NCBI RefSeq assembly: GCF_000372745.1
Contig: NZ_KB889563.1
Coordinates: 143,185-207,184 of the forward strand
Source of the DNA: Embleya scabrispora DSM 41855
GTDB lineage: Bacteria; Actinomycetota; Actinomycetes; Streptomycetales; Streptomycetaceae
Length of the DNA: 64,000 nucleotides
Reading direction: 5' to 3'
The notes beneath the pieces were generated by a model. It was not told the DNA's origin. It did not search any database and saw only the letters and a list, made by a program, of their open reading frames with translations. The translations under genes and the position numbers were made by a program. The number at the start of each line of letters is the position of its first letter. The stretch's first letter is position 1. Below are positions 22,199 to 38,949 of this stretch, piece after piece.

Positions 22199-23461
22199 AT
22201 GGCCGCTACCACAACGGAGGCGTCCCGTACCCATTCCTCCGACAGGTTGCCCGCCGGCGTGTACCTGCTCGGTTTCTGCCTGTTCGCGATGGGAACCGCC
22301 GAATTCCTGTTGGCCGGCGTACTGCCGGCGGTGGCCGCCGATCTGGACGTCACGCTCTCCTCGGCCGGGTTCCTGATCACCGCGTTCGCCATGGGTGTCG
22401 TGATCGGCGGGCCACCATTCGCCGTGCTCAGCCTGCATTGGCCCCGCCGTGCCACGCTGCTGACGACTCAGGGCCTCTTCGCCGCCAGTATCCTCGTCGG
22501 ACTGCTGGGCAACTACCAGGTCCTGCTACTGACCAGAGCGGTTTCCGGTATCGCCTACGCGGGCTTTTTCGCTGTCGCGTCGGTGACCGCGATCGGCCTG
22601 GTGACACCGGACCGGAACGCTCGCGCCTCCGGAATCGTGGTCAGCGGGCTCGGCGCGGCCATGGTCGTCGGCGGTCCCACGGGCACGCTGATCAGCCACT
22701 TCACCCAATGGCGCGTCGGTTTCTGGGTGGTTGTGGCCCTGACGGTCGCCGGGATCGTCGGTTGCCTCCTCGGGCTCCCCGCCCTCGACTCGGACGACGA
22801 CCGACGCACCGGGCCGCGCGTGTCGCGGGAACTCGCCACCATGCGGAGCCCGATGCTCTGGGTCATCTACGCGATCACGATCCTGACCACCGCGGCTTAC
22901 ATGATCACGTTCAACTACCGGGCGGCCCTGCTCACCGACGTCACCGCCATCCCCGAAGTCTGGATCCCGCCGATCCTCGCGCTCTTCGGTGTCGGCGCCT
23001 TCGTCGGTCTCTCCATCGGGGGACGCGTCTCCGATCAGCGCCCTCACCTCGCGCTGCTCACCGGCGCGACGGCGATCGTGGTCCTGTCGGCCGTGCTGGT
23101 CTTCGCGATCCGGCACGTCTGGGCGGTCGTTCCCGTCGTTTTCCTGATCGGCATCGCCGCGTTCGTGCTGAACCCCGCCATCTACGGACGGGTCTTCGCC
23201 ATCGCGGCCGACGCCCCGAGCCTGGCCGGCGCCACGAACGTATCGGCATTCCAACTGGGCATCAGCATCACTCCCGTCCTCGCGGCCGCCTCACTCACAC
23301 AAGGGGCTGCCCTCACATCGGTCTGCCTGATCGGAGCCGTCCTCGCCGCCGCGTCCGTGCCCCTCATCCTGCTCGACCGATCACGACAGGCCCGCTCGAC
23401 GCGAGACCGGGCCGCTGACACACCTTCAGCCGCCATCCGTCCGATGCGAGACCCGGGATGA
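22199..23461 (+). CDS. MFS transporter, AraJ/chloramphenicol-exporter type
   Basis: This 420-residue membrane protein has twelve predicted helices. It begins with VYLLGFCLFAMGTAEFLLAG followed by VLPAVAADLDV, the signature of DHA1-type drug or sugar efflux pumps such as AraJ and Cmr. Motif C is recognisable in ASGIVVSGLGAAMVVGGPTG, typical of antiporters. The ATG at 22199 has no strong ribosome site. It is divergent from the XRE-cupin gene and probably repressed by it, with the exported compound or a relative as inducer. The substrate is unknown. Confidence 0.88.
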   Translation: MAATTTEASRTHSSDRLPAGVYLLGFCLFAMGTAEFLLAGVLPAVAADLDVTLSSAGFLITAFAMGVVIGGPPFAVLSLHWPRRATLLTTQGLFAASILVGLLGNYQVLLLTRAVSGIAYAGFFAVASVTAIGLVTPDRNARASGIVVSGLGAAMVVGGPTGTLISHFTQWRVGFWVVVALTVAGIVGCLLGLPALDSDDDRRTGPRVSRELATMRSPMLWVIYAITILTTAAYMITFNYRAALLTDVTAIPEVWIPPILALFGVGAFVGLSIGGRVSDQRPHLALLTGATAIVVLSAVLVFAIRHVWAVVPVVFLIGIAAFVLNPAIYGRVFAIAADAPSLAGATNVSAFQLGISITPVLAAASLTQGAALTSVCLIGAVLAAASVPLILLDRSRQARSTRDRAADTPSAAIRPMRDPG

Positions 23462-24831: not shown

Positions 24832-26226
24832 TCACGCGGGCTTTCGGTCTGCGCCGAGGTCGAGCAGGAAACGCTTTACCTCCGTGGCGTGTATCGACGA
24901 CCCGCCGGGAAGGTGCCGCAGGGCGGTCGGGTCGTCGCACAGCAGGATCGGGCCGTCGTCCGGGTCGGCGGGCAGCCGTCCGTGGGTGCCGCGCACGGGC
25001 GAGGGGTCGAGCGGGACGACCGACATGCGATAGCGCAGCCCGAGCTTCTTGCGGGCGAGCGCGATGCCCGCCTTCACCTTGACCGCGCGGTCGCTCGGGT
25101 CCCAGAACAGTTCCGCCGGGTCGTAACCGGGTTTGCGGTGGATCTCGACCTGACGGGCGAAGTCGGGGGCGCGCGCGTCGTCGAGCCAGTAGTAGTAGGT
25201 GAACCATGCCTCCGGGTCGGCGATCGCGACGAGGTCGCCCGCGCGCTCGTGGTCGAGCCCGTGGTCGTGTCGGCCGTCCTCGTCCAGCACCTCGGCCACG
25301 CCCGGCAGCTTGGCGAGCAGAGCGGACACGTGCGCACGGTCGGCGGGATCGGGCACGTACACGTGGGCGATCTGGTGGTCGGCCACGGCGAACGCGCGGG
25401 AGGTCCACGGATCCAGAAATTCCATGCCGGCCTGGGTGTGCACCCGCAACAGGCCCTCGGCGCGCAGCATACGATTGATGTCGACCGGCCGGCTCGCACC
25501 GGTGATGCCGTACTCGCTGAGCACGACGACGGTATACGCGTGGGCACGGGCGTACCGAAGCAGCGGCCCCATCGCCGCGTCCACGGCACGCGCGGCGTCG
25601 CGCGCCCGGGGAGAATCGGGACCGTAGCGCTGGAGGTCGTAGTCCAGATGCGGGAGGTAGGCGAGGGTGAGGTCGGGCCCGTGCCGGGTCAGGACATGCC
25701 TGGTGGCGTCGACGATCCATTGGGACGAGCGGATCGAGGCGGTCGGCCCCCAGTAGTCGAAGAGTGGGAACGTACCGAGGGCTGCGGTGAGTTCGTCGTG
25801 CAGTTCCGGGGGATCGGTGTAGCAGTCGGGCTCCTTGCGGCCGTCGGAGTAGTAGATCGGACGGGGCGTCAGCGTCCAGTCGACGTCGGCGCCCATGGCA
25901 TACCACCAGCCCATGTTGGCCACCGTGTAGCCGGGTCGCTCCCGTCGGGCGGCTTCCCAGATCTTCTCGCCGTGCACCAGGCGGTTGTGCTGGCGCCACA
26001 GGAACACCTCACCCAGATCACGGAAGTACCAGCCGTTGCCGACGATTCCGTGTTCACGCGGGAGGGACCCGGTGAGGAAGGTGGATTGCACGGAGCACGT
26101 GACGGCCGGGAGCACCGTGTCCAGGCGGGCCTGGAATCCGACATCGGCGACGGCGCGCAGGTTGGGCATGTCGGCGATCAGGCGGGGGGTGAGTCCGACG
26201 ACGTCGAGCACGAGCAGGCGGGGCAT
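24832..26226 (-). CDS. Alkaline phosphatase-superfamily enzyme (EboF-like)
   Basis: This 464-residue protein has the type I phosphodiesterase/nucleotide pyrophosphatase fold. Metal and nucleophile segments are visible: VLDVVGL near residue 8, a candidate nucleophile Thr43 in LPAVTCSVQST, YLPHLDYDLQRYG, VVLSEYGI and VADHQIAHVY. No signal peptide is present, so it acts inside the cell. Its ATG overlaps the EboE stop as TGATG, so it is the last cistron of the cluster. In ebo clusters the sixth protein is a phosphatase-superfamily member; its substrate is unknown, and removal of a phosphate or nucleotide from a cyclised sugar or prenyl intermediate is one possibility. Confidence 0.85.
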   Translation of the reverse strand: MPRLLVLDVVGLTPRLIADMPNLRAVADVGFQARLDTVLPAVTCSVQSTFLTGSLPREHGIVGNGWYFRDLGEVFLWRQHNRLVHGEKIWEAARRERPGYTVANMGWWYAMGADVDWTLTPRPIYYSDGRKEPDCYTDPPELHDELTAALGTFPLFDYWGPTASIRSSQWIVDATRHVLTRHGPDLTLAYLPHLDYDLQRYGPDSPRARDAARAVDAAMGPLLRYARAHAYTVVVLSEYGITGASRPVDINRMLRAEGLLRVHTQAGMEFLDPWTSRAFAVADHQIAHVYVPDPADRAHVSALLAKLPGVAEVLDEDGRHDHGLDHERAGDLVAIADPEAWFTYYYWLDDARAPDFARQVEIHRKPGYDPAELFWDPSDRAVKVKAGIALARKKLGLRYRMSVVPLDPSPVRGTHGRLPADPDDGPILLCDDPTALRHLPGGSSIHATEVKRFLLDLGADRKPA

Positions 26227-27410
26227 CAGATTCCTTTCCGCTCGGCCGACTTCAGGCCCAGGTCGAGCAAGCCGGTGCGGAGCCGGTCCAGTTCGGCGGC
26301 GATACCGGCGACCAGGGTGTCCCGTGTGGGCGGCCCGTCACGGTCGAGCACGGGCCACGTGTACGTCTCGACTTCGACGTGATCGGTGCGCGCGACGGGG
26401 CCGCCGAACAGGGCCTCGATCGCCCGGTCGAGCACGTCGTGGGTGGCGGTGAGCGGGGCGGGCGGCACGCCGTGCAGGGGCAGGTGGTAGTGGACGCGCC
26501 ACGGCCGTAGGCCGGGCAGGCCGCCGGCGAGGGCGTCCGGCAGGTCGTCGACGGCGAGCGGCGTCTTCTGCGTGGTGGCCCTCTCCTCACGGGTCTGGTG
26601 AAGGAAGCGCGGTTCGGCGTAGGCGCGCAGGGCTTTTGCGGTGGCCTGCGTGTGTGGGTCCTCGGCGTGCAGGGCGCACGCCGCCTGCGCCTTGACCACG
26701 GGGATCGCGGCGGCGGCCAATGTGTCGAGCGCGGCGGCGGGATCCTCGAATCCGACGGCGAGGTGGCAGGTGTCGAAGCAGACGCCGATCCGGTGGGGAT
26801 CGGTACCGCGCAGTGCCGCCGCCGCCTGGTCGGTGGTCTCCAGGACACAGCCGGGTTCGGGTTCGAGGCCGACCCGGATTCGACGCCCGTAATCGGCTTC
26901 GATCCGTTCGAGGCCCGCGGCCAGGTCGTCGAGTGCGCGGCGTGCGGCGTCCGCGCGCTCGACCGGCCAGGGCTCGCGCCACGCGAGCGGGAGCGTGGAA
27001 ACGCTTCCGCGCGCGGCGTCGTCGGGAAGCAGCCGGGCGAGGAGTCGGGAACAGTCGAGCGTGTACTCCAGACGCGCGGGATCGGCCCAATCGGGGCTGT
27101 ACACCGCCTTCTTGACGACCTCGTGTTGAAACCCCGTGTACGGGAACGCGTTGAGGGTGACCACTTCGAGGCCGCGTTCCGCGAGTGCGCGGCGGAGCCG
27201 GTCGACGGACATGGGGTCCTCGACCAGGGAGGTCGCGACGGGACGGGCGAGCCACAGGCCGACACCCAGCGTGGCGACGTCGAGGCGTTCGCGGATCGGC
27301 TCGCAATAGACGGCGAGTTGGTGGAGAACACCGGCGAGGTCTTCGGCGGCATGGACGTTGGTGCAGTAGGCGGCGTGGACGAGGGTGCCGTCCGGGTGTC
27401 GGAACCTCAT
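26226..27410 (-). CDS. eboE: EboE-like TIM-barrel protein
   Basis: This 394-residue protein begins with HAAYCTNVHAAEDLAGVL, the characteristic EboE opening, and continues with a xylose-isomerase-like barrel (VVTLNAFPYTGFQHEVVKKA, VGLEPEPGCVLETT, VCFDTCHLAVGFEDP). The glutamate, aspartate and histidine residues at these strand ends should bind a divalent metal. EboE proteins are annotated as metabolite-traffic proteins, but no reaction has been shown. It overlaps the TatD-type gene by 4 bp (ATGA) and shares one base with the phosphatase start, so the cluster is tightly coupled. Confidence 0.85.
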   Translation of the reverse strand: MRFRHPDGTLVHAAYCTNVHAAEDLAGVLHQLAVYCEPIRERLDVATLGVGLWLARPVATSLVEDPMSVDRLRRALAERGLEVVTLNAFPYTGFQHEVVKKAVYSPDWADPARLEYTLDCSRLLARLLPDDAARGSVSTLPLAWREPWPVERADAARRALDDLAAGLERIEADYGRRIRVGLEPEPGCVLETTDQAAAALRGTDPHRIGVCFDTCHLAVGFEDPAAALDTLAAAAIPVVKAQAACALHAEDPHTQATAKALRAYAEPRFLHQTREERATTQKTPLAVDDLPDALAGGLPGLRPWRVHYHLPLHGVPPAPLTATHDVLDRAIEALFGGPVARTDHVEVETYTWPVLDRDGPPTRDTLVAGIAAELDRLRTGLLDLGLKSAERKGI

Positions 27411-28342
27411 GCGCGAGCCCCGCGCAGGATGGAGTTGCCCTCGAAGGTGGCATTCGGGCCGGGCGAGCGCGTCGGGTCCCTCCGCGCGGGCGTCGGGTCC
27501 TTCGGGGACGTCGGATCGGTCGGAACCGCTGCGAAATCACGTGACTCGGAGGGCAGTTCGAGACGGCCGCTCTGGGCGTAGAACGCGACGGGGTTGCGCC
27601 ACAGGACGAGGTCGACGTCGTCCTCGCGCCAACCCGCGGCGAGCATGGCCCGGCCGGTGTGCAGGGTGGACAGCGGGTCGCTGTGTCCCCAGTCCGCCGC
27701 CGAGTTGACCACCACGCGTTGCGGACCGAGGTCGAGCAGGACGTCCACGGTGCGTTCGGGGGTCATCTTGGTGTCGGGGTAGACGGAGAAACCCATCCAG
27801 CAACCGGTATCGGCGACCAGCTCGACGGTGGTCTCGTTGAGGTGGTCGACCAGGACGCGGCCCGGGTCGATGCCGCTGTCGCGGACGAGGTCGAGGGTGC
27901 GGCGGACACCGGCGGCCTTGTCCCGGTGCGGGGTGTGCACGAGGGCGGGCAGGTCGAACTCGACGGCGAGGGCCAGTTGGTGCCTGAACGCGAGTTCCTC
28001 GGCGTCGGTCATCGAATCGAAGCCGATCTCACCGACGGCGACGACGCGGTCCTTGGCGAGGTAGCCCGGCAGCACGTCGAGTACGGGTGTGCAGCGCGGG
28101 TCGTTGGCCTCCTTCGGGTTGAGCGCGATCGTGCAGTGGTGCTCGATGCCGTACTGGCCGGCCCGGAAGCGCTCCCACCCCAGGAGCGCGTCGAAGTAGT
28201 CCGTGAACGTCGAGACGGCGGTCCGCGGTTGGCCGAGCCAGAACGCCGGTTCCACGAGCGCCAGTACGCCCGCGTCGCGCAGGGCGCGGTAGTCGTCCGT
28301 GGTCCGGGAGGTCATGTGGATGTGCGGGTCGAAGATGCGCAT
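27407..28342 (-). CDS. eboB: TatD-family metal-dependent hydrolase (EboB-like)
   Basis: This 311-residue amidohydrolase-type barrel opens with the metal motif FDPHIHMTSRT. It also has VGEIGFDSMTDAEELAF, LVHTPHRDKAAG and LVDHLNETT, supplying the expected histidine and glutamate ligands. The family includes TatD nucleases, but the version linked with EboA and EboE is treated as EboB and has unknown substrate. The last 40 residues (PTDPTSPKDPTPARRDPTRS) are disordered and unusual. The ATG lies 4 bp after the EboA stop, and the end overlaps the EboE start by 4 bp. Confidence 0.85.
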   Translation of the reverse strand: MRIFDPHIHMTSRTTDDYRALRDAGVLALVEPAFWLGQPRTAVSTFTDYFDALLGWERFRAGQYGIEHHCTIALNPKEANDPRCTPVLDVLPGYLAKDRVVAVGEIGFDSMTDAEELAFRHQLALAVEFDLPALVHTPHRDKAAGVRRTLDLVRDSGIDPGRVLVDHLNETTVELVADTGCWMGFSVYPDTKMTPERTVDVLLDLGPQRVVVNSAADWGHSDPLSTLHTGRAMLAAGWREDDVDLVLWRNPVAFYAQSGRLELPSESRDFAAVPTDPTSPKDPTPARRDPTRSPGPNATFEGNSILRGARA

Positions 28343-28346
28343 CGGA

Positions 28347-29156
28347 TCAGTACTCCTCGGGCGTCGGCGTGAAGCGGGAGGTGATCGGGGCGATGTCGGC
28401 GGGGACCGGTCGGCCGGCCGCCGCTCGCTCGCGGGCGAAGCCGGCCAGCATGCGCGCGAGTTCGGCGTCCGCGCGGTCGTCGAGGCCGGTGACGGTCGGG
28501 CCCAGCGGCAGCCCGAGGAAGACGCACTTGAGGACGCCGTGGCGCCACGCCTCGGGCGCGAGCGCCCGGTACCCGCACGGGCCCATCGCGGCGGCGACGA
28601 GCCGGTGGTCGTTGGTGCGCAGCGCGTCCTCGACGAGGAGGCGGCGGCACAGGCACGCGTGCGGGTCGGGGAGGGTACCGGCGTTCGGCTCGGGTGGGTG
28701 CGGCGTACACGGCAGGTAGGGCAGAGCGCGGAGTATCGCCCGTCGCTCCCGGGCGTCGCCTCCCTCGTACAGGGCGCGCACGAGCGCCGGCAGGTCCCCT
28801 CGTGTCGGGTGGGTGCGGCCGTTGTGCACGTGCGGATCGCATTCGCGTACGGCCGCCGCTGACACGGCGTGCAGAAGCAGCACCCGCGCGGCGTCGTCAC
28901 AGGTCCAGCCCGGGAGTTCGGCGAGCGGTGCCCGGCCGCAGAGCCGCCCGGCGGACGCGAACGCGGTGGCCAGTCGGGCGGGTTCCGCCGCCGCCTCGAC
29001 GGGCCAGTCGCGCCGACCGGCCCCGACCGCGCGGGCGAAGGCGACACGCAACTCGGCGAGGTCGGGATCGGGTGGCCCGCCCGCGGGGACCCCGTGCTCG
29101 GGCGGGGACATCGATATCGCCGCCGCTTCCGCTTCGACAGTTCGACGGTCAGACAC
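28347..29156 (-). CDS. eboA: EboA-domain protein
   Basis: This 269-residue protein is mostly helical, with the EboA hallmarks LVRALYEGGDARERRAILRA, LLVEDALRTNDHRLVAAAMG and AWRHGVLKCVFLGLPLGP. Its biochemical role is unknown; it defines the ebo gene set. Several cysteines (CTPHPPEP preceded by LPYLPC, HACLCRR) could bind metal, but this is speculation. The GTG at 29156 gives an 8-bp overlap with the preceding epimerase stop (GTGTCTGA) and is preferred to a start 22 codons farther upstream. It sits between the epimerase and TatD genes in one coupled string. Confidence 0.85.
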   Translation of the reverse strand: MSDRRTVEAEAAAISMSPPEHGVPAGGPPDPDLAELRVAFARAVGAGRRDWPVEAAAEPARLATAFASAGRLCGRAPLAELPGWTCDDAARVLLLHAVSAAAVRECDPHVHNGRTHPTRGDLPALVRALYEGGDARERRAILRALPYLPCTPHPPEPNAGTLPDPHACLCRRLLVEDALRTNDHRLVAAAMGPCGYRALAPEAWRHGVLKCVFLGLPLGPTVTGLDDRADAELARMLAGFARERAAAGRPVPADIAPITSRFTPTPEEY

Positions 29157-29991
29157 CCTCGGCCTCCTTCTCGGCAGCACGCAGGAAGTCGATCGACCGC
29201 CGGGCGGTCTCGGTGGCCGCATGGCTGTGGCGTGGGAGTTCGACGCCGACGAGCCCGTCGTAGCCGACTTCGGTCAACGCCGACACGACCGGGGGGAAGT
29301 CGATCTCACCCCGGCCGAATTCCAGGTGCTCATGGACGCCACGTCGCATGTCCTCGATCTGGACGTTGACCAGGCGCGACCCGACGCGCCGCACGCAGTC
29401 CGGCACGGGCAGCGGTTCCAGACAGCGGCAATGCCCGATGTCGAGGGTCGGGCCCAGGTTTTCGGGCCGGCCGAGGCGCCGCCACAGTTCGTCGTAGCGG
29501 TCGAGCGTGTCGACGAACATTCCGGGTTCGGGCTCGAAACCGAGTGTGACACCTCGGATCTCCGCTTCGGCCAGAACGCGCGCGCAGCCGGATACGAGAC
29601 GATGCCAGCAGACCGCGGGGTCGGTGTCGTCGGGGGCGGTGCCGCTCCAGAACGACACGACGGATGCCCCGAGTTCGGCCGCGATCCGGACGGCGCGTGC
29701 CAACAGGTCCACCCGGCGTTCGGCGTCGTCGGCGCACAGCAGGGTCGGTCGATGCTTGCGCCGGGGGTCGAGAAGGTAGCGGGCGCCGGTCTCGATGACG
29801 ACGGCGAGCCCGAGTCGGTCGAGCCGTGCGGCCACATCCGCGACGCGTGTGGACAGGTCGTCGGCGTACGGATCGAGGTGGTGGTGGTCGAGCGTCAGCG
29901 CGACACCGTCGTAGCCGAGATCGGCCAGGATCGAGAGCACGTCGCCGATCCGGTGATCGGCGAAGCCGTTGGTGCCGTAGGCGAGCCTCAC
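29149..29991 (-). CDS. Sugar phosphate isomerase/epimerase in the ebo-like cluster
   Basis: This 280-residue barrel opens with RLAYGTNGFADHRIGDVLSI and carries the metal-site segments GFEPEPGMFVDT, PTLDIGHCRC, VNVQIEDM and VGVELPRHS. GGAGG at 30002-30006 places the start at GTG 29991; upstream the frame reads only through a 9-bp tandem repeat giving Arg-Thr-Ser/Pro repeats. A second xylose-isomerase-like barrel in addition to EboE suggests the pathway handles a ketose or inosose. The gene is separated from the UbiA gene by 195 bp and overlaps EboA by 8 bp. Confidence 0.87.
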   Translation of the reverse strand: MRLAYGTNGFADHRIGDVLSILADLGYDGVALTLDHHHLDPYADDLSTRVADVAARLDRLGLAVVIETGARYLLDPRRKHRPTLLCADDAERRVDLLARAVRIAAELGASVVSFWSGTAPDDTDPAVCWHRLVSGCARVLAEAEIRGVTLGFEPEPGMFVDTLDRYDELWRRLGRPENLGPTLDIGHCRCLEPLPVPDCVRRVGSRLVNVQIEDMRRGVHEHLEFGRGEIDFPPVVSALTEVGYDGLVGVELPRHSHAATETARRSIDFLRAAEKEAEGV

Positions 29992-30007
29992 GAAAACGTC
30001 ACCTCCA

Positions 30008-30115
30008 GTGCGAGAAGCGCGAGAAGTCCGACAAGTGCGTGAAGTGCGTGAAGTGCGGGGAGTACGAGGAGTACGAGGAGTGCGCGAAGTGCGCGAAGTG
30101 CGCGAAGTGCGCGTC
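30008..30115. repeat. Tandem 9-bp repeat, about 12 units
   Basis: Units follow GTGCGNGAA with variants GTACGAGGA and GTCCGACAA, the last ones being exact copies of GTGCGCGAA. The array ends just before the ribosome site of the minus-strand epimerase. It lies between that gene and the UbiA stop, so it is probably in an intercistronic transcript segment. On the minus strand it could form purine-poor, structured RNA that sets translation of the next gene. Confidence 0.75.
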
Positions 30116-30186
30116 CTACGCGGCTTCAAGGGCTGGGATGCCCGAGCGGCGCGCGACCGGAAAGCGCGGGCGCGTCGAGCACGGCC

Positions 30187-31224
30187 TCACGTCGGCGACA
30201 CGACCTTCGCGAGCGCTCGGGCGCCCGGCCACGCGGCGGACAGGAGGAGCGCGGCACGTGGTCGGCCGAGCCGGGACAGCACCGCGGCCTGGAGGGGCAA
30301 CAGGGCGAGCACACCGCCGCCGACGGCGGCGCGGACCGTGCCCGCCCGAGGATCGGCGATCGCCCGGACCAACGGCCGGCCGTAGGCGGCCAGGTAGCTC
30401 ACGAGCCCCGCACCGGACAGCGACTCCCCCACCCGGTCCCATCCCGCACCTCCGCGGATGCCCCGGCGGCCCCGGGCGCTCCGTCCCGCCGGCCGCCCGC
30501 GTCCGGCAACCCCCGCCGCGACCGTGGTTGCCACGGCCGTTGCCAGGGCCGCCACCGGCGGGCCCGCGGTCGTGCCGTGTTCCTCGTGGCGGCTGAGCGC
30601 GGTCACGCCGTACGTGTGCAGAGCCACGACACCCGCGCACCCGGCGGCACCCGTGAGTCCGCCCGCTCGTCCGGGTCGTGCGCCGACCATGACGTCCAGG
30701 CCGCGGGCGAGTGCCATGCCCGCCGGTGCGGCCGGTGTGCCCTTCAGGATCAGGTCGTAGGTCCACACCGCCCCGGCGAGGCCGAGGACTGCCGGGAGCC
30801 GCCGGCGACCGCCCGCCCAGGCGCCGATGGTCACCCCGGCGGCCGTCAGACCCACAGCCGTGGCCAGCGCCTCGCCGGGCCTGATCCGACCTGAGGGGAT
30901 CGGCCGCTCGGGCCGTTCCTTGGCGTCGAGATCCCGATCGGCGTAGTCGTTCAGCGCCATGCCGGCCCAGTACAGGCACACGGATGCCACCGGCAGCGCC
31001 GGCTCCCGACCTCGGAGCAGCCCTCCCGACGCGGCCGCGCCCACCAGGACGTCGCCCGGGACGCTCAGCGCGGCCGGGACCCGAACCAGTTCCGCGAACG
31101 CCCGCCACCGCCTTTGTCCCGCGCCCGGGTTCGGATTCGGGTTCGGATTCGGGTTCGGGTTCGGCTCCGGCGTATCGGCGCCCGAGGCGTTCGTACACTC
31201 GAAGGGGTCGCCCTCATTCCTCAC
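30187..31224 (-). CDS. eboC: UbiA-family prenyltransferase (EboC-like)
   Basis: This 345-residue integral membrane protein carries the first aspartate motif NDYADRDLD and the second-site YDLILKGTPAAP, both needed to bind prenyl diphosphate through magnesium. About seven to eight helices follow a soluble N-terminus containing the dipeptide repeat PNPNPNPNPNPNP. UbiA enzymes attach a prenyl chain to an acceptor; here the acceptor is unknown, and a cyclitol or sugar derivative made by neighbours is a reasonable guess. The GTG at 31224 overlaps the upstream inositol phosphate synthase stop by 11 bp. It corresponds to EboC of ebo clusters. Confidence 0.88.
   Translation of the reverse strand: MRNEGDPFECTNASGADTPEPNPNPNPNPNPNPGAGQRRWRAFAELVRVPAALSVPGDVLVGAAASGGLLRGREPALPVASVCLYWAGMALNDYADRDLDAKERPERPIPSGRIRPGEALATAVGLTAAGVTIGAWAGGRRRLPAVLGLAGAVWTYDLILKGTPAAPAGMALARGLDVMVGARPGRAGGLTGAAGCAGVVALHTYGVTALSRHEEHGTTAGPPVAALATAVATTVAAGVAGRGRPAGRSARGRRGIRGGAGWDRVGESLSGAGLVSYLAAYGRPLVRAIADPRAGTVRAAVGGGVLALLPLQAAVLSRLGRPRAALLLSAAWPGARALAKVVSPT
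31126..31166. repeat. 6-bp microsatellite coding for Asn-Pro repeats
   Basis: Six or seven units alternating GGTTCG and GATTCG lie inside the 5-prime end of the UbiA gene and encode the N-terminal Asn-Pro run. Length changes by whole units would keep frame but vary the tail length. Confidence 0.8.
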
Positions 31225-32396
31225 CCACGACCTCCTGACGTGCCGTCAGACGTTCTTGCGCCCAGGACACGAGGGCGTCGTATTGTGCCGAGAGGGCGTG
31301 GACGTCCGTCCCCACCGGGTCCTTGAAGTAGAAGGCGAGTTCGCGCAACGGCCCCGCGCAGCCCGCGTCGAGGGCACGCGCCGAGAGCCGCGCGAGGTCC
31401 AGGACGAGCGGCGCGGCAAGTGCCGAGTCGCAGCCGGTCCAGGTGAATTGCAGGTTCATCCGCGTTCCGAGGAAGCCCTCGAACGTCACGTGGTCCCAGG
31501 CTGTCTTCCACTCGCCCAGTTCCGGGACGTTGTGGATGTGGACTCCCCCGCCCACCGGATGTCCGAGCAGCGAACGCAGCGCCCGATCCTTGGAGTCGAT
31601 CTTGGCGGCGGCCCGCTCGGGCCGGGACAGAGTCTCGCCGTCCCCGCCGCCGAGCAGGTTCGTCCCCGACCACGATGTGACGCGCAGGGCGCGCTGCGCG
31701 AACATCGGGGCGAGGACGGTCTTGAGAAGGGTTTCCCCCGTCTTGCCGTCGCTGCCCGCGAAGGGCACCCCGTACGAGGTGAACACCTCGGCCACACCCG
31801 GTATTCGGGCGCCCGCGGACGGGGTGAAGTCGACGAACGCGCAGCCGGCCTGGGCGGCGGCCCACGCGTAGCGCGCGCTGGGGGGCAGGACGTTCTCGCC
31901 CGCGGCGAGCGCCGCGCAGCGTCGTGCCACCGGCGTGCGCCGGGTGTGGTGCCGTGACGGGTTCGGTCGACGCGAGATTGACCACCACCACGCGGGCGAG
32001 TTCGTACCTTTCCCGAAACTCCGTCAGGTCGCCGGTCAGGGCGGCGATCTGCTCGTCCTGTGGACGCGGGTCGTCGGCGGTGACACCCGGACGCAGCCGA
32101 GCGTCCACCTCGTCGAGGCCGGCCGCGATCGAATCCGGCAGGGCGAGCGGCAGCACCCCGTCGGCGGCGAGTCGCGCGGCGCGGTCGCTCAGCGGTACAC
32201 CGAGGATGTCGTGACCGCCGAACACCAGGTCGGCGAATGCGGGCAGCGCGCACCGCTCGAACGGCTCGGTGGCCGTCACGCAGCCCAGCGGCGGGGCGTC
32301 ACCGGCACCGACTGCGAGCGCCCCGCTCATCGTGGTCACGGCCACCGACCCGCGGGCGCCCACCAACCACACGCCGGTCCGATCCGCCGACTTCAC
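31214..32396 (-). pseudogene. Inositol-3-phosphate synthase, apparently frameshifted
   Basis: The N-terminal half (from GTG 32396) reads GVWLVGARGSVAVTTMSGAL and later VVVVNLASTEP, the NAD-binding part of this enzyme. The C-terminal half reads SDGKTGETLLKTVLAPMFAQ and GTNLLGGGDGETLS, its catalytic part. They lie in frames offset by one base. The switch falls at about 31905-31950, between STEPVTAPHPAH and AALAAGENVLPP. A single extra base or two missing bases would explain it. Neither frame has an early stop, so a chimeric product is possible, as is a sequencing error or a coupled restart at GTG 31930. Intact, it would cyclise a hexose 6-phosphate to an inositol phosphate. It is translationally linked to the UbiA gene. 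Confidence 0.7.
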
Positions 32397-32832: not shown

Positions 32833-34146
32833 TCAGTGAGCCGTCAGCACGTGGTCGCTGATGAGTCGGGCCGCGCCGATGACCCCTGCGGTGCCGCCGA
32901 GTTCGGACAAGACGATGGGCAGGTTGCCGGTCGCCAGGGGCAACGACTGGCGATAGACGACGCTGCGGATCTCGGCGAGCAGCGGGTGACCGAGCCCGGC
33001 CACGCCGCCGCCGATGATGAGCAGCCCCGGATTGAGGAAGCTGACGAGGGCCGCGATCACCCGGCCCACGCGCATGCCGCCTTCCCGGACGATGGCCACC
33101 GCCGCCGGGTCTCCGGCCGCGGCGGCGTCGGCGACGTCACGACCGGTGAGCGTTCCGTTGTCCGCCAGACGGTGGACGAGGAACGGTGATGCGCCCGAAT
33201 CGGCGACCGCCCGCGCCTCGCGGGCGAGTGCCGCGCCCGAGAAGTACGCCTCCAGGCAACCGGCGTTGCCGCAGACGCACATCGGGCCGGTGTCGTCGAG
33301 TCGGATGTGGCCGATGTCGCCGGCGCTGCCGGAGACGCCTCGGTAGATCTCACCGCCGACGACGATGCCGCATCCGATGCCGGTGCCGATCTTGATGAGG
33401 AGGAAGTCGTCGATGGATCGGGCCACACCGGAATGCAGTTCGCCCAAGGCCATGATGTTGACGTCGTTGTCGACGAGCACGGGGCAGCCGAGTCGGCGGC
33501 CGACGACGTCCCTTATCGGGAATCGGTCCCACCCGGGCATGATCGGTGGGATCACCGGCATGCCCTCGCGGAAGCTGACGGGTCCGGGTACGCCTATGCC
33601 GACTCCGTGCACCTGGGGAAACGGGTCGACTTCGCGCAGTTTGTCGACGAGTGCGAAGACCCGGTCGAGTACCTCTTCGGGACCGATCCGCACATCGCAC
33701 TGCTCGGTCAGGTGGCCCAGGACCTCCAGTTCACCGTTGGTGACGGCGACGTCGATCGAGGTCGCGCCGATGTCGACGCCGATGAATCGCATGCCGGGCG
33801 AGAGTCGAACGATGCCCGAGCGTCGCCCACCGCGTGAGGCGGCGAGGCCGGCCGGCTCCACGAGGCCGAGTTCGGTGAGGCGATCGACCTCGATGGCGAG
33901 CTTGGAACGCGACATGTGGACGCCGTCGCCGAGTTCGGCCCGGGATTGGGGGCCGTTGTCGCGCAGCAGGCCGAGCAGGCGTGCCTGGTGTCGGTTTTCC
34001 GGGCGAGGTGGCATCCGCATGGCATCGCCTTCATCGAGTTCCGTCGGGTTCGCATCCGTTGTGCCGGGATCCGAACCGGGGCTTGAGACGTGTCCTCCGG
34101 CGACCGCCTTTCGCCCACTGCTCCTTGAGTTTTCCCCGCCTGCCAT
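32833..34146 (-). CDS. ROK-family transcriptional regulator
   Basis: This 437-residue repressor has an N-terminal helix-turn-helix near residues 50-105 (SRAELGDGVHMSRSKLAIEV) and a ROK sugar-kinase-like domain. The ATP-site DIGATS is present, as is the zinc motif with GPMCVCGNAGCLEAYFSG. Such proteins sense sugars and repress catabolic operons. The ATG at 34146 has GGGGAAAG upstream; a later ATG would drop a disordered tail. It is embedded in a long minus-strand run between the sugar-uptake half and the ebo-like half, and is the best candidate regulator for either. AACAAAGTT just upstream of it and a similar AACAAACTT in front of the first gene of the run (about 46156) may be related sites. 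Confidence 0.88.
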   Translation of the reverse strand: MAGGENSRSSGRKAVAGGHVSSPGSDPGTTDANPTELDEGDAMRMPPRPENRHQARLLGLLRDNGPQSRAELGDGVHMSRSKLAIEVDRLTELGLVEPAGLAASRGGRRSGIVRLSPGMRFIGVDIGATSIDVAVTNGELEVLGHLTEQCDVRIGPEEVLDRVFALVDKLREVDPFPQVHGVGIGVPGPVSFREGMPVIPPIMPGWDRFPIRDVVGRRLGCPVLVDNDVNIMALGELHSGVARSIDDFLLIKIGTGIGCGIVVGGEIYRGVSGSAGDIGHIRLDDTGPMCVCGNAGCLEAYFSGAALAREARAVADSGASPFLVHRLADNGTLTGRDVADAAAAGDPAAVAIVREGGMRVGRVIAALVSFLNPGLLIIGGGVAGLGHPLLAEIRSVVYRQSLPLATGNLPIVLSELGGTAGVIGAARLISDHVLTAH

Positions 34147-34290
34147 CAGACTTTCCCCATTCAAGAACAAAGTTGATGACGACAGTATCGGGATCCCGCG
34201 GCCTCGCCGAAGCGGGGCCGCGGTGAATCCCGTTCTCCTTCCCACGTTGCAGTGTTTCGCGGTACTACGCCCTGTCCGGCACTGGTTGCA

Positions 34291-37200
34291 TCACCCTCCG
34301 ATGTCGGCGATCACGCGGTTGGCATCCCGCGTGATGGCTGTGCGCACGTCCGCGTTCGAGACCACCTTCACATCGGCGACAAGGGTCTTGAGCCTGCCCA
34401 GTTCGGCGATCGCCCTGTCGTCCTTGCCCTGTGCCTCGGCCACGCGGGCCTTCTCGAGCCGGCTGGTGAGCTTCGTCTTGGCCGTCGCGGACAGCCATCC
34501 GGTGGCGCGGAACCGGTCGATGAGGTTTTGCATGTCGCGCATCGACGTGGTCACCGCGAACCGGACGGCGGTCGTCGTCTTGTTGCCCGCGTTGTCCTCG
34601 GCGAGGACTTCGACGGTGTGCTGCCCGAGGTTCAGGGTGAACAGCGGTTGAATCGTTCCGGACGTGGCCGCCTTCCCGTCGAGAGTGCCCGCGAGCGTCT
34701 TGACGCCGGAGGTCGGGTCGATCGCCTCCCAACTCACCCGCACGTCCTGCGAGTCGCCGTACACCGCACCGTCGGCGACCCCGGCGACCAGCAGCACCGG
34801 CTTGGTCGCGTCGATCTTGATCGTCGCGGCCTTGTCCGCCTCGACGAGTCCGGCCCGGTCGGTACCCCGGTAGCGCAGGACGTGTTCGCCGTCGCCGGAC
34901 ACCGTCACCGCGCCGCCCGGGTAGGGCGTCCAGGCGCCGCCGTCCAGCGCGTATTCGATGCCCGCGACCCCTGACGATTCGTCAACGGCCGCGAGCGTGA
35001 CCGGAATCGCTCCCGCGTGCCAGCCGCCGTCGCCGGGTGCCGCGAAGCCCGCCGTGGTCAACGGCGTCCCGGTGTCGACCTTGACGGCCAGTTCCCTGCT
35101 CTCTTCCGTGTTGCCGGCCCTGTCCTTCGAGCGGTACTGGAGCTTGTGCTCACGGTCGCCGCTCACGCTCACCGGAGTTCCGTCGTACGTCGTCCAACCG
35201 GCGGCGTCCAGGTTGTATTCGGTCGCGGCGACGCCCGACCCGTCCGCCTCGTCGGTCCCGGTCAGGGTCACGTTCACGGGAGCCGTCGTGTACCAGCCGT
35301 CCTTCCCCGTGGGCTGAGCCGGATCGGGCTTCGCGGTGGTGACCGGTGCCTGGGCGTCCGCGGCGACCCTGGTGAACTTCCACTTCTGGTTGCTCGCGCC
35401 GTTGCAGGTCCATTGCAGGACCTTGGCTCCGTCCTGCGTGCCGACACCGGCGACATCGGCGCACAGCCTGCTCGTGACGTTGGCGAGCGAGTACACGCCG
35501 GGCTCGGCGCCGGCCGTCGGCTTCCAGTGCTGATTGCCGCCGCCGTTGCATGCGTACTGCGCGAGTTGCACGTCGAGTTCGGTGGACTGGCCCGGGACTT
35601 CCAGACACTTGCCGCCGATCGCCGATTTGATCGTGTACGAGCCGTCACCGACCGGGTCGACCTGCCACTTCTGCTCCTTGCCGGCGCCCGGCGCCTGCTG
35701 GACGATCGGCGCGGAGTCGGCCGGCGACGCGCCCTGCACGGCCATGTTCTTGCCGCTGTGCTTGGCCGTGAGCGTGTACAGGCCCGCTTCGATGCCGGGC
35801 TCGGTGACCACAGCGGTATCGAATTGTATGGCGTCCACGTCGAAGGAGTTGTTCGCCGCCGCCTTGAACACCATGTAGAGCTTGTGGGTTCCGGCGAGCG
35901 TGGCGAGCGACACGCCCGGGGTGGTCGCGTAGTTGTTCCAGCCGCCGGTGGACGGCACGGGTGTGCTCCCCAGGAGCGTTCCGGTGGGAGTGTCCGCGTG
36001 CACCTCGATGCTTCCTCCGCCGGTGGGTGAGGACAGCCGGTATCGAATCGAGGCGGTCCCCACGAGATTGGCGGGATCGAACATGATCCAGTCGTTGTCG
36101 CTGATGTCACCGAGGCGTTTGCCGTTCTCCGCGCCCGGCTCGGCGACCACCCGAATCCCGGACTGCGCGGTGAAGTACTCGGCCTGCTTGTGGCGAGGCT
36201 GGAGCACGGCCCGGGCGTAGCCGGTGAGCCGGCTCGCGTTGGGGCCGCCCTTGTCGGTGTACTTCGCGTTCAGGACGAAGTACAGGTTGGCGCCCTCCGG
36301 GTGCCCGCCGAGGTCGTCGGTGGCGATGGTGCCCTCACAGCCGGGGATGTCGGCGGTCGGGTGCTCGTGGTCGTCGTGTCCGAGGGCCGGGTTGACCACG
36401 ACCTGCGCGCAGTCGACCGGCCCGTCCTCGGGGTCGGTCACCTTGACCTTGTAGGGGACACGGTCACCGAAGGCGACGAACTGCCCGTTCGCGGGGAACT
36501 CCAGGGTGACCGTCGGTGCGGTGTTGCCCACGGATATCGCGACGTTCGCGAAGCCCGATTGTCCGGTCGCGTCCGTCACCTGGAGTTGCGCGCTGTAGTC
36601 GCCGTTGACGGTATAGACGTGCGTCGGGTCGGCCTCGGTGGAATCGGTGGTGCCGTCGGCGTCGAAGTCCCAAGCGTAGGAGAGCGGTCCGCCGTCGGGG
36701 TCGATGGTGCCCGCGCTGGAGAACTTCACGGTCAGCGGTCCGGGGCCGTTGGGCGGGGTCGCGCTCGCCTTGACGATCGGCTTGCGTTGGCCCTGCGTGT
36801 AGTCGATCCGGTAGAGGCCGGAGTCGTTGTTGCCGCCGCCGAACGAGCTGCCCCAGTCGAGCACGTAGAGGGAACCGTCGGGGCCGAAGGTCATGTCCAT
36901 CGGCTTGGCGAATTTCGCCGTGGGCAGGAAGTCGTTGATCTTCAGGAGCTTGTTCGACGCGTCGAAGCGGACCTCCTTGACGAAGCCGCGCGCCCACTCG
37001 TAGAAGAAGCCGGCGCCGTCGTAGTAGGCCGGGAACTTCGTGGTCGAGGGGTTGTTCGGGTCGTAGCGGTATACCGGCCCGGCCATCGGCGCGGAGCCGC
37101 CCTGGCCCATTTCGGGGAACTCGGGCGAGGCGCCGTAGCCGTACCAGATCTCCGGCAGTTGCACGGCCGGGAGCTGGGTCAGGCCGGTGTTGTTGGGCGA

Positions 37201-38949
37201 GGGGTTCGTCGGGTTGGCGCAGTCGAACTTCGCTCCGACGACTTTGGTGTCGGGGTTGTAGGGCGCGTAGGGCTGGTTGTTGCCGTGACAGAACGGCCAG
37301 CCGAAGTTGCCGGGCTGCTTGATGACGTTGTACTCGACCAGGCCCTCGGGCCCCCGGTCGGTGGTGGGCAGTCCCCGGTCGGGGCCGTAGTCGGCCACGT
37401 GCACCCATCCGTTGGCCTGGTCGACGCGGAAGCGGAACGGGTTGCGGAAGCCCATCGCGAAGACCTCGGGCCTGGTCTTGTCCGTGCCCACCGGGAACAT
37501 GTTCCCTGACGGGATGTCATATCCCCCGTCGGCCTTGGGCTTGATCCGCAAAATCTTGCCGCGCAGGTCGTTGGTGTTGCCGGCGGTGCGTGCCGAGTCG
37601 AGCATGAACTTGCCGGGCCGCCAGTCGATCGGCGAGTAGCCCTGCCAGTTCGGGTCCAGGTTGGGCGGCACGTCGTCACCGGTACCCAGATACAGGGTGC
37701 CGTCGGGGCCGAAGTCGAGTGCGCCGCCGGTGTGACCCGGTTCGCCGAACGTACGGCTGCGGTAGGCGGGGACGTCGATGACCTTCTTCTCGCTCGCCAG
37801 GTCGATCGTGTCACCGGTGACGGTGAAGCGGGACACGCGGTTCACGTCGTCCGGGCTCGCGGCCGGCGAGTGGTAGAGGTAGATCCATTTGTTCTGCGCG
37901 AAGTTCGGGTCGAGGGCCATGCCGACCAGACCGTCCTCACCGCCGGTGTACACCGAAAGCTTGGCCGCCGTGGTCGAGCTGTGCGTGTCGGGCTTGTAGA
38001 CCTTGACCTCGCCGCTGCGCTGAATGTAGAAGACCCGGCCGTCGGGAGCGACGTCGAGTTGCATCGGGTCGGCGGTGTTGTCGTCGAGGGTGACCTTCTC
38101 GAAGCCGCTCCACACCGTGCCGCCGCAGTCGCCGGGCTCGGCGCCCGCCGCCCACTTCAAGCCGCCCAGGATGTGCTTGCGCAGATCCGGTTCCGCGTAG
38201 GACGAGGCGGTGTGACCCATGGCGGTGGCCCAGATCCGACCGCCCTCCGCGTTGCGGCACCACGAGATCGGGTGATCGGCGCCCATCTTGGACGGGCCCG
38301 GGTTGTAGGTGGTCTCGTCCGCCGTCACGAGGACGTGCACGTTCCCCCGGGGGTTCTTGTCGAAGTTGTACCACTCCTCGCTGCGGGCCCAGCGCTCCGG
38401 CAGACCCTTGGTCGAGGGGTGCGTCCGGTCGGCGACCTTGGCGGTGCCCGGGAGGACACCGGGCGAGTGGGTGGGCATGTGCGCACCACCGTTGACCAGG
38501 TCGTCCCACCACGGGAAGTCGTTCTCGATGCCCATGTCCATGGCGTTGTGGATCGCCACGACGCCCTTGCCGGAACGGACGTACTTCTGTAGAGCGGCGC
38601 GCTGGGCGTCGTTCTCCCAGACCATGCCCGAGTTCTGGAGCATGACGATCGCGTCGAAACCGGCCAGGCTCGCGTCGCTGAAGACGGCCGAGTCGTTGGA
38701 CTGCACGACTTCGTAGTGGTTGGCCTCGGCCTCGTCCTGGAACATCTTGATCCCCGCGGGGATCGAGTCGTGCACGTAGCCGACTGCCTTGGTGAACAGC
38801 AGGGCGCGGAACGTGGTGTGCGCCTGCGCCTGCTGAACGGGTGTCAGAGTGAACAGGGCCAGGGCCATCGCGAGGACGACGCCGAGAGACCGTACGGTGC
38901 GGGCGGATCGGGAAGTGCCTCTGGGGAAGGGTGGACCGATCGAGCGCAT
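34291..38949 (-). CDS. Giant secreted ThuA / sorbosone-dehydrogenase-like multidomain protein
   Basis: This 1552-residue protein has a signal peptide cleaved near Ala43. In order it carries a ThuA-like glutamine-amidotransferase fold (about 46-273), a glucose/sorbosone-dehydrogenase beta-propeller (about 280-720, with LVGMALDPNFAQNKWIYLYH and GPEGLVEYNVIKQPGNFGWP) and a PKD domain (723-803). These are followed by a CBM6-like carbohydrate module (923-1040), a ricin-type lectin (1056-1190), two OmpL47-type beta domains (1216-1383) and a helical C-terminus. It should bind polysaccharide outside the cell and oxidise or process a sugar, possibly with PQQ. GAGGAG precedes the ATG. It lies between an epimerase gene and the ROK gene. 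Domain limits are estimates. Confidence 0.88.
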   Translation of the reverse strand: MRSIGPPFPRGTSRSARTVRSLGVVLAMALALFTLTPVQQAQAHTTFRALLFTKAVGYVHDSIPAGIKMFQDEAEANHYEVVQSNDSAVFSDASLAGFDAIVMLQNSGMVWENDAQRAALQKYVRSGKGVVAIHNAMDMGIENDFPWWDDLVNGGAHMPTHSPGVLPGTAKVADRTHPSTKGLPERWARSEEWYNFDKNPRGNVHVLVTADETTYNPGPSKMGADHPISWCRNAEGGRIWATAMGHTASSYAEPDLRKHILGGLKWAAGAEPGDCGGTVWSGFEKVTLDDNTADPMQLDVAPDGRVFYIQRSGEVKVYKPDTHSSTTAAKLSVYTGGEDGLVGMALDPNFAQNKWIYLYHSPAASPDDVNRVSRFTVTGDTIDLASEKKVIDVPAYRSRTFGEPGHTGGALDFGPDGTLYLGTGDDVPPNLDPNWQGYSPIDWRPGKFMLDSARTAGNTNDLRGKILRIKPKADGGYDIPSGNMFPVGTDKTRPEVFAMGFRNPFRFRVDQANGWVHVADYGPDRGLPTTDRGPEGLVEYNVIKQPGNFGWPFCHGNNQPYAPYNPDTKVVGAKFDCANPTNPSPNNTGLTQLPAVQLPEIWYGYGASPEFPEMGQGGSAPMAGPVYRYDPNNPSTTKFPAYYDGAGFFYEWARGFVKEVRFDASNKLLKINDFLPTAKFAKPMDMTFGPDGSLYVLDWGSSFGGGNNDSGLYRIDYTQGQRKPIVKASATPPNGPGPLTVKFSSAGTIDPDGGPLSYAWDFDADGTTDSTEADPTHVYTVNGDYSAQLQVTDATGQSGFANVAISVGNTAPTVTLEFPANGQFVAFGDRVPYKVKVTDPEDGPVDCAQVVVNPALGHDDHEHPTADIPGCEGTIATDDLGGHPEGANLYFVLNAKYTDKGGPNASRLTGYARAVLQPRHKQAEYFTAQSGIRVVAEPGAENGKRLGDISDNDWIMFDPANLVGTASIRYRLSSPTGGGSIEVHADTPTGTLLGSTPVPSTGGWNNYATTPGVSLATLAGTHKLYMVFKAAANNSFDVDAIQFDTAVVTEPGIEAGLYTLTAKHSGKNMAVQGASPADSAPIVQQAPGAGKEQKWQVDPVGDGSYTIKSAIGGKCLEVPGQSTELDVQLAQYACNGGGNQHWKPTAGAEPGVYSLANVTSRLCADVAGVGTQDGAKVLQWTCNGASNQKWKFTRVAADAQAPVTTAKPDPAQPTGKDGWYTTAPVNVTLTGTDEADGSGVAATEYNLDAAGWTTYDGTPVSVSGDREHKLQYRSKDRAGNTEESRELAVKVDTGTPLTTAGFAAPGDGGWHAGAIPVTLAAVDESSGVAGIEYALDGGAWTPYPGGAVTVSGDGEHVLRYRGTDRAGLVEADKAATIKIDATKPVLLVAGVADGAVYGDSQDVRVSWEAIDPTSGVKTLAGTLDGKAATSGTIQPLFTLNLGQHTVEVLAEDNAGNKTTTAVRFAVTTSMRDMQNLIDRFRATGWLSATAKTKLTSRLEKARVAEAQGKDDRAIAELGRLKTLVADVKVVSNADVRTAITRDANRVIADIGG

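Follow-up and report, generated by a model that had tools for sequence, protein, structure and literature searches.

The stretch of DNA analysed here, referred to as the window, comprises 64,000 nucleotides of contig NZ_KB889563.1 of Embleya scabrispora DSM 41855 (positions 143,185 to 207,184 of the forward strand), whose genome of 11.39 Mb is available in 190 contigs. On the minus strand of the window, seven genes running in the same direction from 32396 to 24832 encode, from first to last, the inositol-3-phosphate synthase INO, a prenyltransferase of UbiA type, a second TIM barrel (TIM2), EboA, EboB, EboE and EboF (Table 1). This arrangement is a form of the ebo gene set, which has been described as a group of six genes with a proposed isoprenoid-cyclitol product, the proposed chemistry starting from EboD (PMC5133447). 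The canonical set (eboA to eboF, found in cyanobacteria, Bacteroidetes and eustigmatophyte plastids) shares with the actinobacterial one the clustering of EboA-domain, EboB, UbiA-type, EboE and EboF genes. They differ in that the actinobacterial form has INO and TIM2 and lacks EboD, EboC and EboA being its most diverged members. Among the window proteins, EboE, EboA (by its domain) and the prenyltransferase (SCO3242 family) are identified by curated models at scores over the cut-offs, and the NCBI annotation already names the genes of the cluster, one by one.

Table 1. Features of the ebo region of Embleya scabrispora DSM 41855, in window coordinates.
Feature	Position	Strand	Evidence
Inositol-3-phosphate synthase (ebo-type INO)	31214..32396	-	PF07994 and PF01658 over cut-off, two frames
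UbiA-superfamily prenyltransferase, SCO3242 family, EboC counterpart, Pro/Asn-repeat N-terminus	30187..31224	-	NF045897, 338 bits
9-bp tandem array (11.7 copies), close before the start of TIM2	30007..30111	.	
TIM2, AP_endonuc_2 sugar-phosphate isomerase/epimerase-type TIM barrel	29149..29991	-	PF01261, 143 bits
EboA-domain protein	28347..29156	-	NF035938, 131 bits (cut-off 50)
EboB, TatD-type metal-dependent hydrolase	27407..28342	-	PF01026, 44 bits
EboE, TIM barrel	26226..27410	-	NF035939, 418 bits (cut-off 250)
EboF, alkaline-phosphatase-superfamily protein, unusual invariant active site	24832..26226	-	PF01663, 224 bits
ROK-family regulator, upstream of the cluster	32833..34245	-	PF00480 over cut-off; MarR_2 below cut-off
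Multidomain protein: ThuA, glucose/sorbosone dehydrogenase, PKD, CBM6, ricin-B, FIMAH	34291..38949	-	

A preliminary description, made from the letters of the window, had spoken of a tight string of EboA, EboB, EboC, EboE and EboF. These genes have been confirmed, although the string is not continuously tight, since 195 bp separate the UbiA gene from TIM2. This gap holds the 9-bp tandem array, which reaches 21.8 copies in Embleya sp. NBC_00896 versus 11.7 in the window; a second short array, with a 6/12-bp unit, lies at 31126-31164 inside the N-terminus of the prenyltransferase. Scanning the cluster region for promoters and terminators gave no signal above chance. The nearest named relatives found, ranked by EboE identity, are Embleya sp. 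NBC_00896 (91.6%) and NBC_00888 (74.6%), in whose records the replicons bearing the cluster are large, linear and deposited as plasmids.

The distribution of the set was surveyed in a sample of 394 Actinomycetes genomes, in which the EboE model had matches in 98 genomes, in 90 of them over the cut-off. From the 111 match rows, 97 loci were retrieved, namely 93 over the cut-off (the one of the window being excluded) and 4 of the 17 below it. Five of the former (L082, L113, L116, L127 and L129) were rejected as ebo loci, because no other scored ebo gene lies near their EboE match, and ten open reading frames from L129, L113 and L082 were assigned by family scans to other metabolic or transport genes; for L116 and L127 the decision rests on the scored ebo genes alone. 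The four weak ones (L130-L133) were also dropped; they are EboE-like matches with no other scored ebo genes, save a weak TIM2 match in L131. In the resulting 88 actinobacterial loci besides the window, EboB was found in 88, EboF in 87, a prenyltransferase of the family in 85, TIM2 in 82, INO in 81 and EboD in none. The complete order INO-EboC-TIM2-EboA-EboB-EboE-EboF is kept in 76 of the 88, so that a chance grouping of genes is excluded and the neighbours of INO are by no means restricted to one genome. Fusions of TIM2 with EboA, mentioned in PMC5133447, were not seen in the sampled loci at the cut-offs used.

The absence of EboD extends beyond the clusters themselves. With four first-look candidates scored per genome, no match to the NCBIfam EboD model NF004852 was obtained at E 1e-70 in any of the 394 genomes, that of Embleya scabrispora included, whereas the same model recovered all three positive controls, taken from plasmids (the EboD of Azospirillum sp. 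B510, Ketogulonicigenium vulgare and Deinococcus sp. AB2017081) with 545-585 bits. The loci of these three bacteria have the same EboB, EboC, EboE and EboF types around EboD, with EboA annotated in Azospirillum and Ketogulonicigenium, and differ from the actinobacterial ones in carrying neither INO nor TIM2; the Ketogulonicigenium set also adjoins Gfo/Idh/MocA genes and a sugar isomerase. An EboD placed elsewhere in the Embleya scabrispora genome was considered and rejected, since neither of its two dehydroquinate-synthase genes reaches the EboD model at that limit. One of these, on contig C104, is accompanied in the genome by a second dehydroquinate-synthase-like gene at C36:181836-182168, possibly belonging to another cyclitol or aminoshikimate-type pathway.

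The reverse pattern is observed in other phyla. Among the best 80 of the loci listed, ranked by their match to the Deinococcus EboF, EboD was detected in 73 (74 at a lower score limit), and INO and TIM2 in none; the locus-level EboD model used for this purpose was built from three sequences, with a threshold of at least 100 bits. Of the seven loci in this best 80 without EboD, four (L149, L194, L206 and L216) lie on contigs shorter than 7.5 kb and three (L147, L148 and L169) do not, and ebo genes besides EboF were found in only three of the seven (L147, L194 and L216). TIM2, present in 82/88 actinobacterial loci versus 0/80 of these others, goes together with INO, a connection that the preliminary description had missed. 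In a tree of EboF and EboB, the actinobacterial clusters form a single clade with support 1.0 (38 of 78 tips). Judging from these gene contents, it is very probable that INO and TIM2 take over the part of EboD in one clade of actinobacteria. The original suggestion that INO takes the place of EboD is strongly supported (no separate EboD in 88 loci or 394 genomes, INO in 81 loci), and the INO-type variant, which had been guessed to be a little-studied actinobacterial one, is the common form among the Actinomycetes sampled and no local oddity.

The link between INO and the remaining genes also holds for whole genomes, as a strong ebo-type INO was found in 84 of 85 ebo genomes versus none of the other 309. 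Like the EboD search, these scored few first-look candidates per genome (four), the E limits set being 1e-70 and 1e-60; the INO model was built from cluster INO sequences, so that the matches inside clusters are partly circular, but the absence from the 309 genomes is not. The single ebo genome without a strong INO, G319, has a lower-scoring gene of this kind (about 330 bits), located on a different contig; all 85 own an ebo-type INO-like gene somewhere, and three of the 309 hold weaker relatives only. A search independent of INO, carried out at phylum level with the prenyltransferase model, placed 13 of 296 genomes over the cut-off, at 14 places; in these short loci (3-4 kb), INO, TIM2 and EboA matches accompany the prenyltransferase at 13 places, the window included, and the fourteenth is L042, which has no INO. 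SCO3242-family prenyltransferases occur in 53 of 150 Streptomycetaceae genomes. Three genomes of the same genus as the source (G667, G682 and G692) gave no match to this family, and the cluster is thus patchy within the genus.

Seven of the 88 loci do not contain a full INO. Three of them (L064, L101 and L102) end at contig edges, in genomes having INO on another contig. L060 (genome G461) bears an N-terminal INO fragment at the cluster and a full INO on another contig. L042 and L055 are second clusters, from two genomes of one family, with matching lengths and order of open reading frames; upstream of EboC, L042 has a CrtO/desaturase-like FAD oxidoreductase, followed by inositol-monophosphatase-family and gamma-glutamyltranspeptidase genes. 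In L096, from genome G319, other genes lie where INO and TIM2 would be, that is, a sugar-binding protein and a Gfo/Idh/MocA oxidoreductase scoring 373 bits against the levoglucosan dehydrogenase model (cut-off 650).

In the window itself, INO is interrupted. The N-terminal half starts at GTG 32396 and the C-terminal half corresponds to the open reading frame 31214-31930, in a different frame; the reading frame breaks off at about 31.90-31.96 kb. The inositol-3-phosphate synthase named at the outset was thus correctly recognised as to both domains, which score over their cut-offs, but not as an intact gene, the split into two frames having been missed. INO is intact in both named Embleya records, and both halves were found, every time in a single frame, in the 81 actinobacterial loci that have it. 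Compared with NBC_00896, 24 of 40 differences in one half and 33 of 45 in the other fall at third codon positions, which suggests that the lesion is either recent or an error of the draft assembly.

As regards the type of enzyme, the solved structure closest to the ebo INO is 1u1i (E 1.5e-100), followed by 7nwr (6.8e-78), while 6k96 (3.6e-22) and 1gr0 (3.6e-17) are far more distant. Of these, 1u1i comes from Archaeoglobus fulgidus, 7nwr from Bacteroides and 1gr0 from Mycobacterium tuberculosis. The match to the A. fulgidus myo-inositol-1-phosphate synthase covers the full length, and none of the 22 diverse sequences aligned departs from the lysines corresponding to K274, K278, K306 and K367 of 1u1i; they are presumably the catalytic ones, two of them being sites changed in the aligned PDB variants. 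The genome has a separate mycothiol-type INO1, with 716 bits against TIGR03450 (cut-off 638), a model that the ebo INO misses (55 bits for the C-terminal half of INO in the window, 37 bits for the intact homologue L139). On these sequence relationships, the ebo INO is of archaeal type and distinct from the mycothiol INO1 of the genome. The idea of a stray copy of the latter was consequently rejected, taking into account the separate INO1, the closeness to 1u1i and the distance from 1gr0. A related view is that INO would be no more than a supplier of inositol to mycothiol or phosphatidylinositol, lying beside the ebo genes incidentally. Elsewhere the INO family does provide inositol 3-phosphate for such purposes, but this view is very improbable given the separate INO1 and the lack of a high-scoring ebo-type INO in all 309 non-ebo genomes.

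The conservation of the other enzymes allows an alternative in which the product does not change. EboB and EboF have a mean identity of about 50% between the actinobacterial and canonical samples, and the ratio of between-variant to within-variant identity is 0.76 for EboF, 0.73 for EboB, 0.66 for EboE, 0.59 for EboA and 0.58 for EboC. Taking into account that the remaining ebo genes are retained, an INO-like enzyme might have converged on the EboD product, or might use another sugar phosphate, such as sedoheptulose 7-phosphate or a ketose phosphate, TIM2 completing the conversion to the same compound in both variants. The INO fold can make other rings, since 6k96, a PDB relative of the family, is a synthase of a five-membered cyclitol phosphate. 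The ebo INO is nevertheless much closer to the inositol-phosphate synthases 1u1i and 7nwr than to 6k96, and conserves the lysines, which makes this convergence rather unlikely. The same ratios would fit a picture in which EboC, EboA and EboE are in contact with the altered portion of the molecule, the ring, although faster evolution alone could account for them as well.

The prenyltransferase belongs to the SCO3242 family (cut-off 260 bits for NF045897) and misses the EboC model NF035940 (104 bits, cut-off 250), as does the EboC of Azospirillum, from an EboD-containing cluster (89 bits). An Asp-rich stretch, NDYADRDLDAKERPERPIPSG, is present in the window protein; with matches in just 15 of 57 EboC rows, a strict Asp-motif pattern did not serve as a test. 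In TIM2, the two Glu of EPEPG, the Asp of DxGH and the Glu of xELPR are invariant in 84/84 sequences, and in EboE the Glu/Gln/Glu positions are so in 168/168; by analogy with related isomerases, we take these residues to be metal ligands. EboA misses the narrower family NF035937 (49 bits, cut-off 320), and its predicted model is all-helical (mean pLDDT 80), with weak helical-repeat matches only in a fold search against the PDB (best E 0.36). For EboB, the best solved relative of the L139 homologue is AF_1765 (3guw, E 6e-30).

The predicted model of EboE (mean pLDDT 91) has sugar and sugar-phosphate epimerases and isomerases as its nearest solved folds, followed by an IolE-type protein (3cny), the dehydroshikimate dehydratase AsbF (3dx5) and 3-keto-glucoside enzymes. 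This closeness to IolE and AsbF, among many sugar isomerases, allows a different course of events, in which TIM2 and EboE would act as inosose or 3-dehydroshikimate dehydratases and the ring would be aromatised before prenylation, EboC then yielding a new prenylquinol or quinone. In agreement with this, Ubi-297, the EboC of Flavobacteria, farnesylates quinoline acids in vitro (PMC9235831), and Gfo/Idh/MocA-type oxidoreductases, able to make inososes, are found in 12 of the 88 flanks. The core set, however, has no dehydrogenase or oxygenase, and sugar epimerases score equal to or above the dehydratases, so that aromatisation is improbable, at a level comparable to that of convergence on the EboD product. 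With regard to Ubi-297, it is likewise a UbiA-type enzyme of an ebo cluster, but the loci of Algoriphagus, one of several genera assayed, carry EboD (L150, L151, L153 and L161); Saccharomonospora clusters are compared in a figure of the same article (PMC9235831).

The preliminary description had proposed a route from a hexose phosphate through a cyclitol to a prenylated cyclitol, with a dephosphorylation, and had spoken of an EboF-like phosphatase. The route as a whole is still conjectural, and its dephosphorylation step is weakened by the active site of EboF. In an alignment with phosphonoacetate hydrolase, a characterised relative, Gln and Glu-Tyr replace His and Asp-His, respectively; all 173 EboF proteins of the two variants agree in the residues Thr, Asp, Gln, Glu and Tyr, and 171 share a downstream His, the other two having gaps there. 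The invariant site being unusual, the label of phosphatase is unsafe. The alignment argues for a specific reaction catalysed by a conserved yet altered site, which need not be the hydrolysis of a phosphate.

Regarding the genomic neighbourhood, the ROK-family protein is the probable regulator of the cluster, a sugar ABC transporter is also encoded in the window, and the N-terminus of the adjacent multidomain protein resembles a signal peptide by eye. At 22199-23461 there is an MFS transporter related to the Cmx/CmrA chloramphenicol exporters (364 bits, below the cut-off of 400). Counting the same strand only, 40 of the 88 loci have a ThuA, glucose/sorbosone dehydrogenase (GSDH) or 3-keto-disaccharide-hydrolase protein no more than 4.5 kb upstream, versus matches anywhere in the flanks of 4 to 7 of 83 EboD-type loci for each domain. 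GSDH genes are few in the source genome (5 matches at 4 places), which alone served as background. Proteins of the ThuA/GSDH type are thus recurrent neighbours of the actinobacterial set, possibly with a functional link. Together with the further TIM barrels, the sugar transporter and the ROK regulator, they would suit a role in the breakdown of carbohydrates through 3-keto sugars, in which the TIM barrels would be keto-glycoside lyases, hydratases or epimerases and INO a by-player. The prenyltransferase scored in 85/88 loci, the 48 loci with no such neighbour at that distance and the nonribosomal peptide synthetase (NRPS) gene beside the set in Streptomyces NBC_00376 speak against this role and render it improbable, more so than aromatisation.

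Other neighbours are less regular. In Streptomyces NBC_00019, the gene next to INO is annotated as belonging to the ScyD/ScyE family, but a fixed link was rejected, because relatives occur in the flanks of 3 of the 88 loci only and such a neighbour is not general. On a plasmid of Streptomyces NBC_00376, the INO-type set lies beside a Tat-signal protein, with the NRPS gene, phosphopantetheinyl transferases and a SARP regulator in the region, which recalls the position of SCO3242/SCO3243 in the CDA region of S. coelicolor. SCO3243 is annotated as a myo-inositol phosphate synthase, and both genes have been counted as CDA genes, the accessible part of that article making no mention of ebo (PMC3610822). 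SCO3242 gives its name to the prenyltransferase family met here and, as far as family names and annotation permit a comparison, the two genes probably belong to the ebo set and not to the CDA cluster. A role of the ebo genes in the transport of metabolites to the periplasm has been proposed for scytonemin in Nostoc (PMC6282210); the recurrence of apparently exported neighbour proteins is suggestive in this respect.

Taken together, we propose, with a probability of about 0.6, that in the actinobacterial form of the ebo set an archaeal-type INO and TIM2 replace EboD and lead to a prenylated lipid derived from inositol. Thus, INO would cyclise glucose 6-phosphate to inositol 3-phosphate, whose ring would be reshaped by TIM2 and EboE, as metal-dependent barrels of the sugar-isomerase type, and to which the membrane enzyme EboC would attach a prenyl chain. 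The substrate of EboB and EboF would be whatever portion of the molecule the two variants share, with EboA as a helical partner protein, and the lipid would function in an extracytoplasmic step, much as the canonical set functions in the transport of the scytonemin precursor. That the product is such a lipid, and has such a function, is put forward tentatively, at somewhat less than even odds. An inositol-monophosphatase-family gene near L042, a second cluster without INO, is in favour of it.

Several observations weigh against this proposal. UbiA enzymes act for the most part on aromatic rings. The relative of EboC that has been assayed farnesylated quinolines (PMC9235831). The INO gene of the source genome is itself broken in the assembly and the site of EboF is atypical. 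INO is missing at the cluster in L042, L055 and L096, and TIM2 in L041, L044, L067 and L096; L073 lacks EboC, EboF and TIM2, and L122 has no scored EboC. The cyclitol released by EboD-type enzymes is unphosphorylated (PMC5133447), whereas that of INO carries a phosphate, so that both variants need not share a product. Moreover, no product, assay or mutant of the actinobacterial form, and no article linking INO with ebo, was found in the open-licence literature; in its accessible text, the main part of PMC5133447 has 'Actinobacteria' once and 'inositol' not at all, and the latter word is also absent from that of PMC6282210. Convergence on the same product and an aromatised prenylquinol are therefore serious rivals to the prenyl-inositol product. 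A more daring extension, which is possible but doubtful, would make this product an unknown prenylated inositol lipid, a carrier or cofactor formed by an archaeal-type INO and a prenyltransferase distantly like the archaeal lipid synthases, and serving exported sugar-oxidising or biosynthetic enzymes encoded next to it.

If this extended reading is correct, it would provide the first chemical identity for an ebo product. The finding of an independent enzyme in the EboD slot narrows the chemistry of the set, as a cyclitol is probably what is required in this slot and, for the actinobacteria, inositol is indicated by the family to which the enzyme belongs and by its lysines. A mis-sorting of SCO3242 and SCO3243, counted until now with the CDA antibiotic cluster, is also suggested. 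Since Streptomyces strains are easily mutated and labelled with inositol, the question of the ebo product becomes directly testable in laboratory strains.

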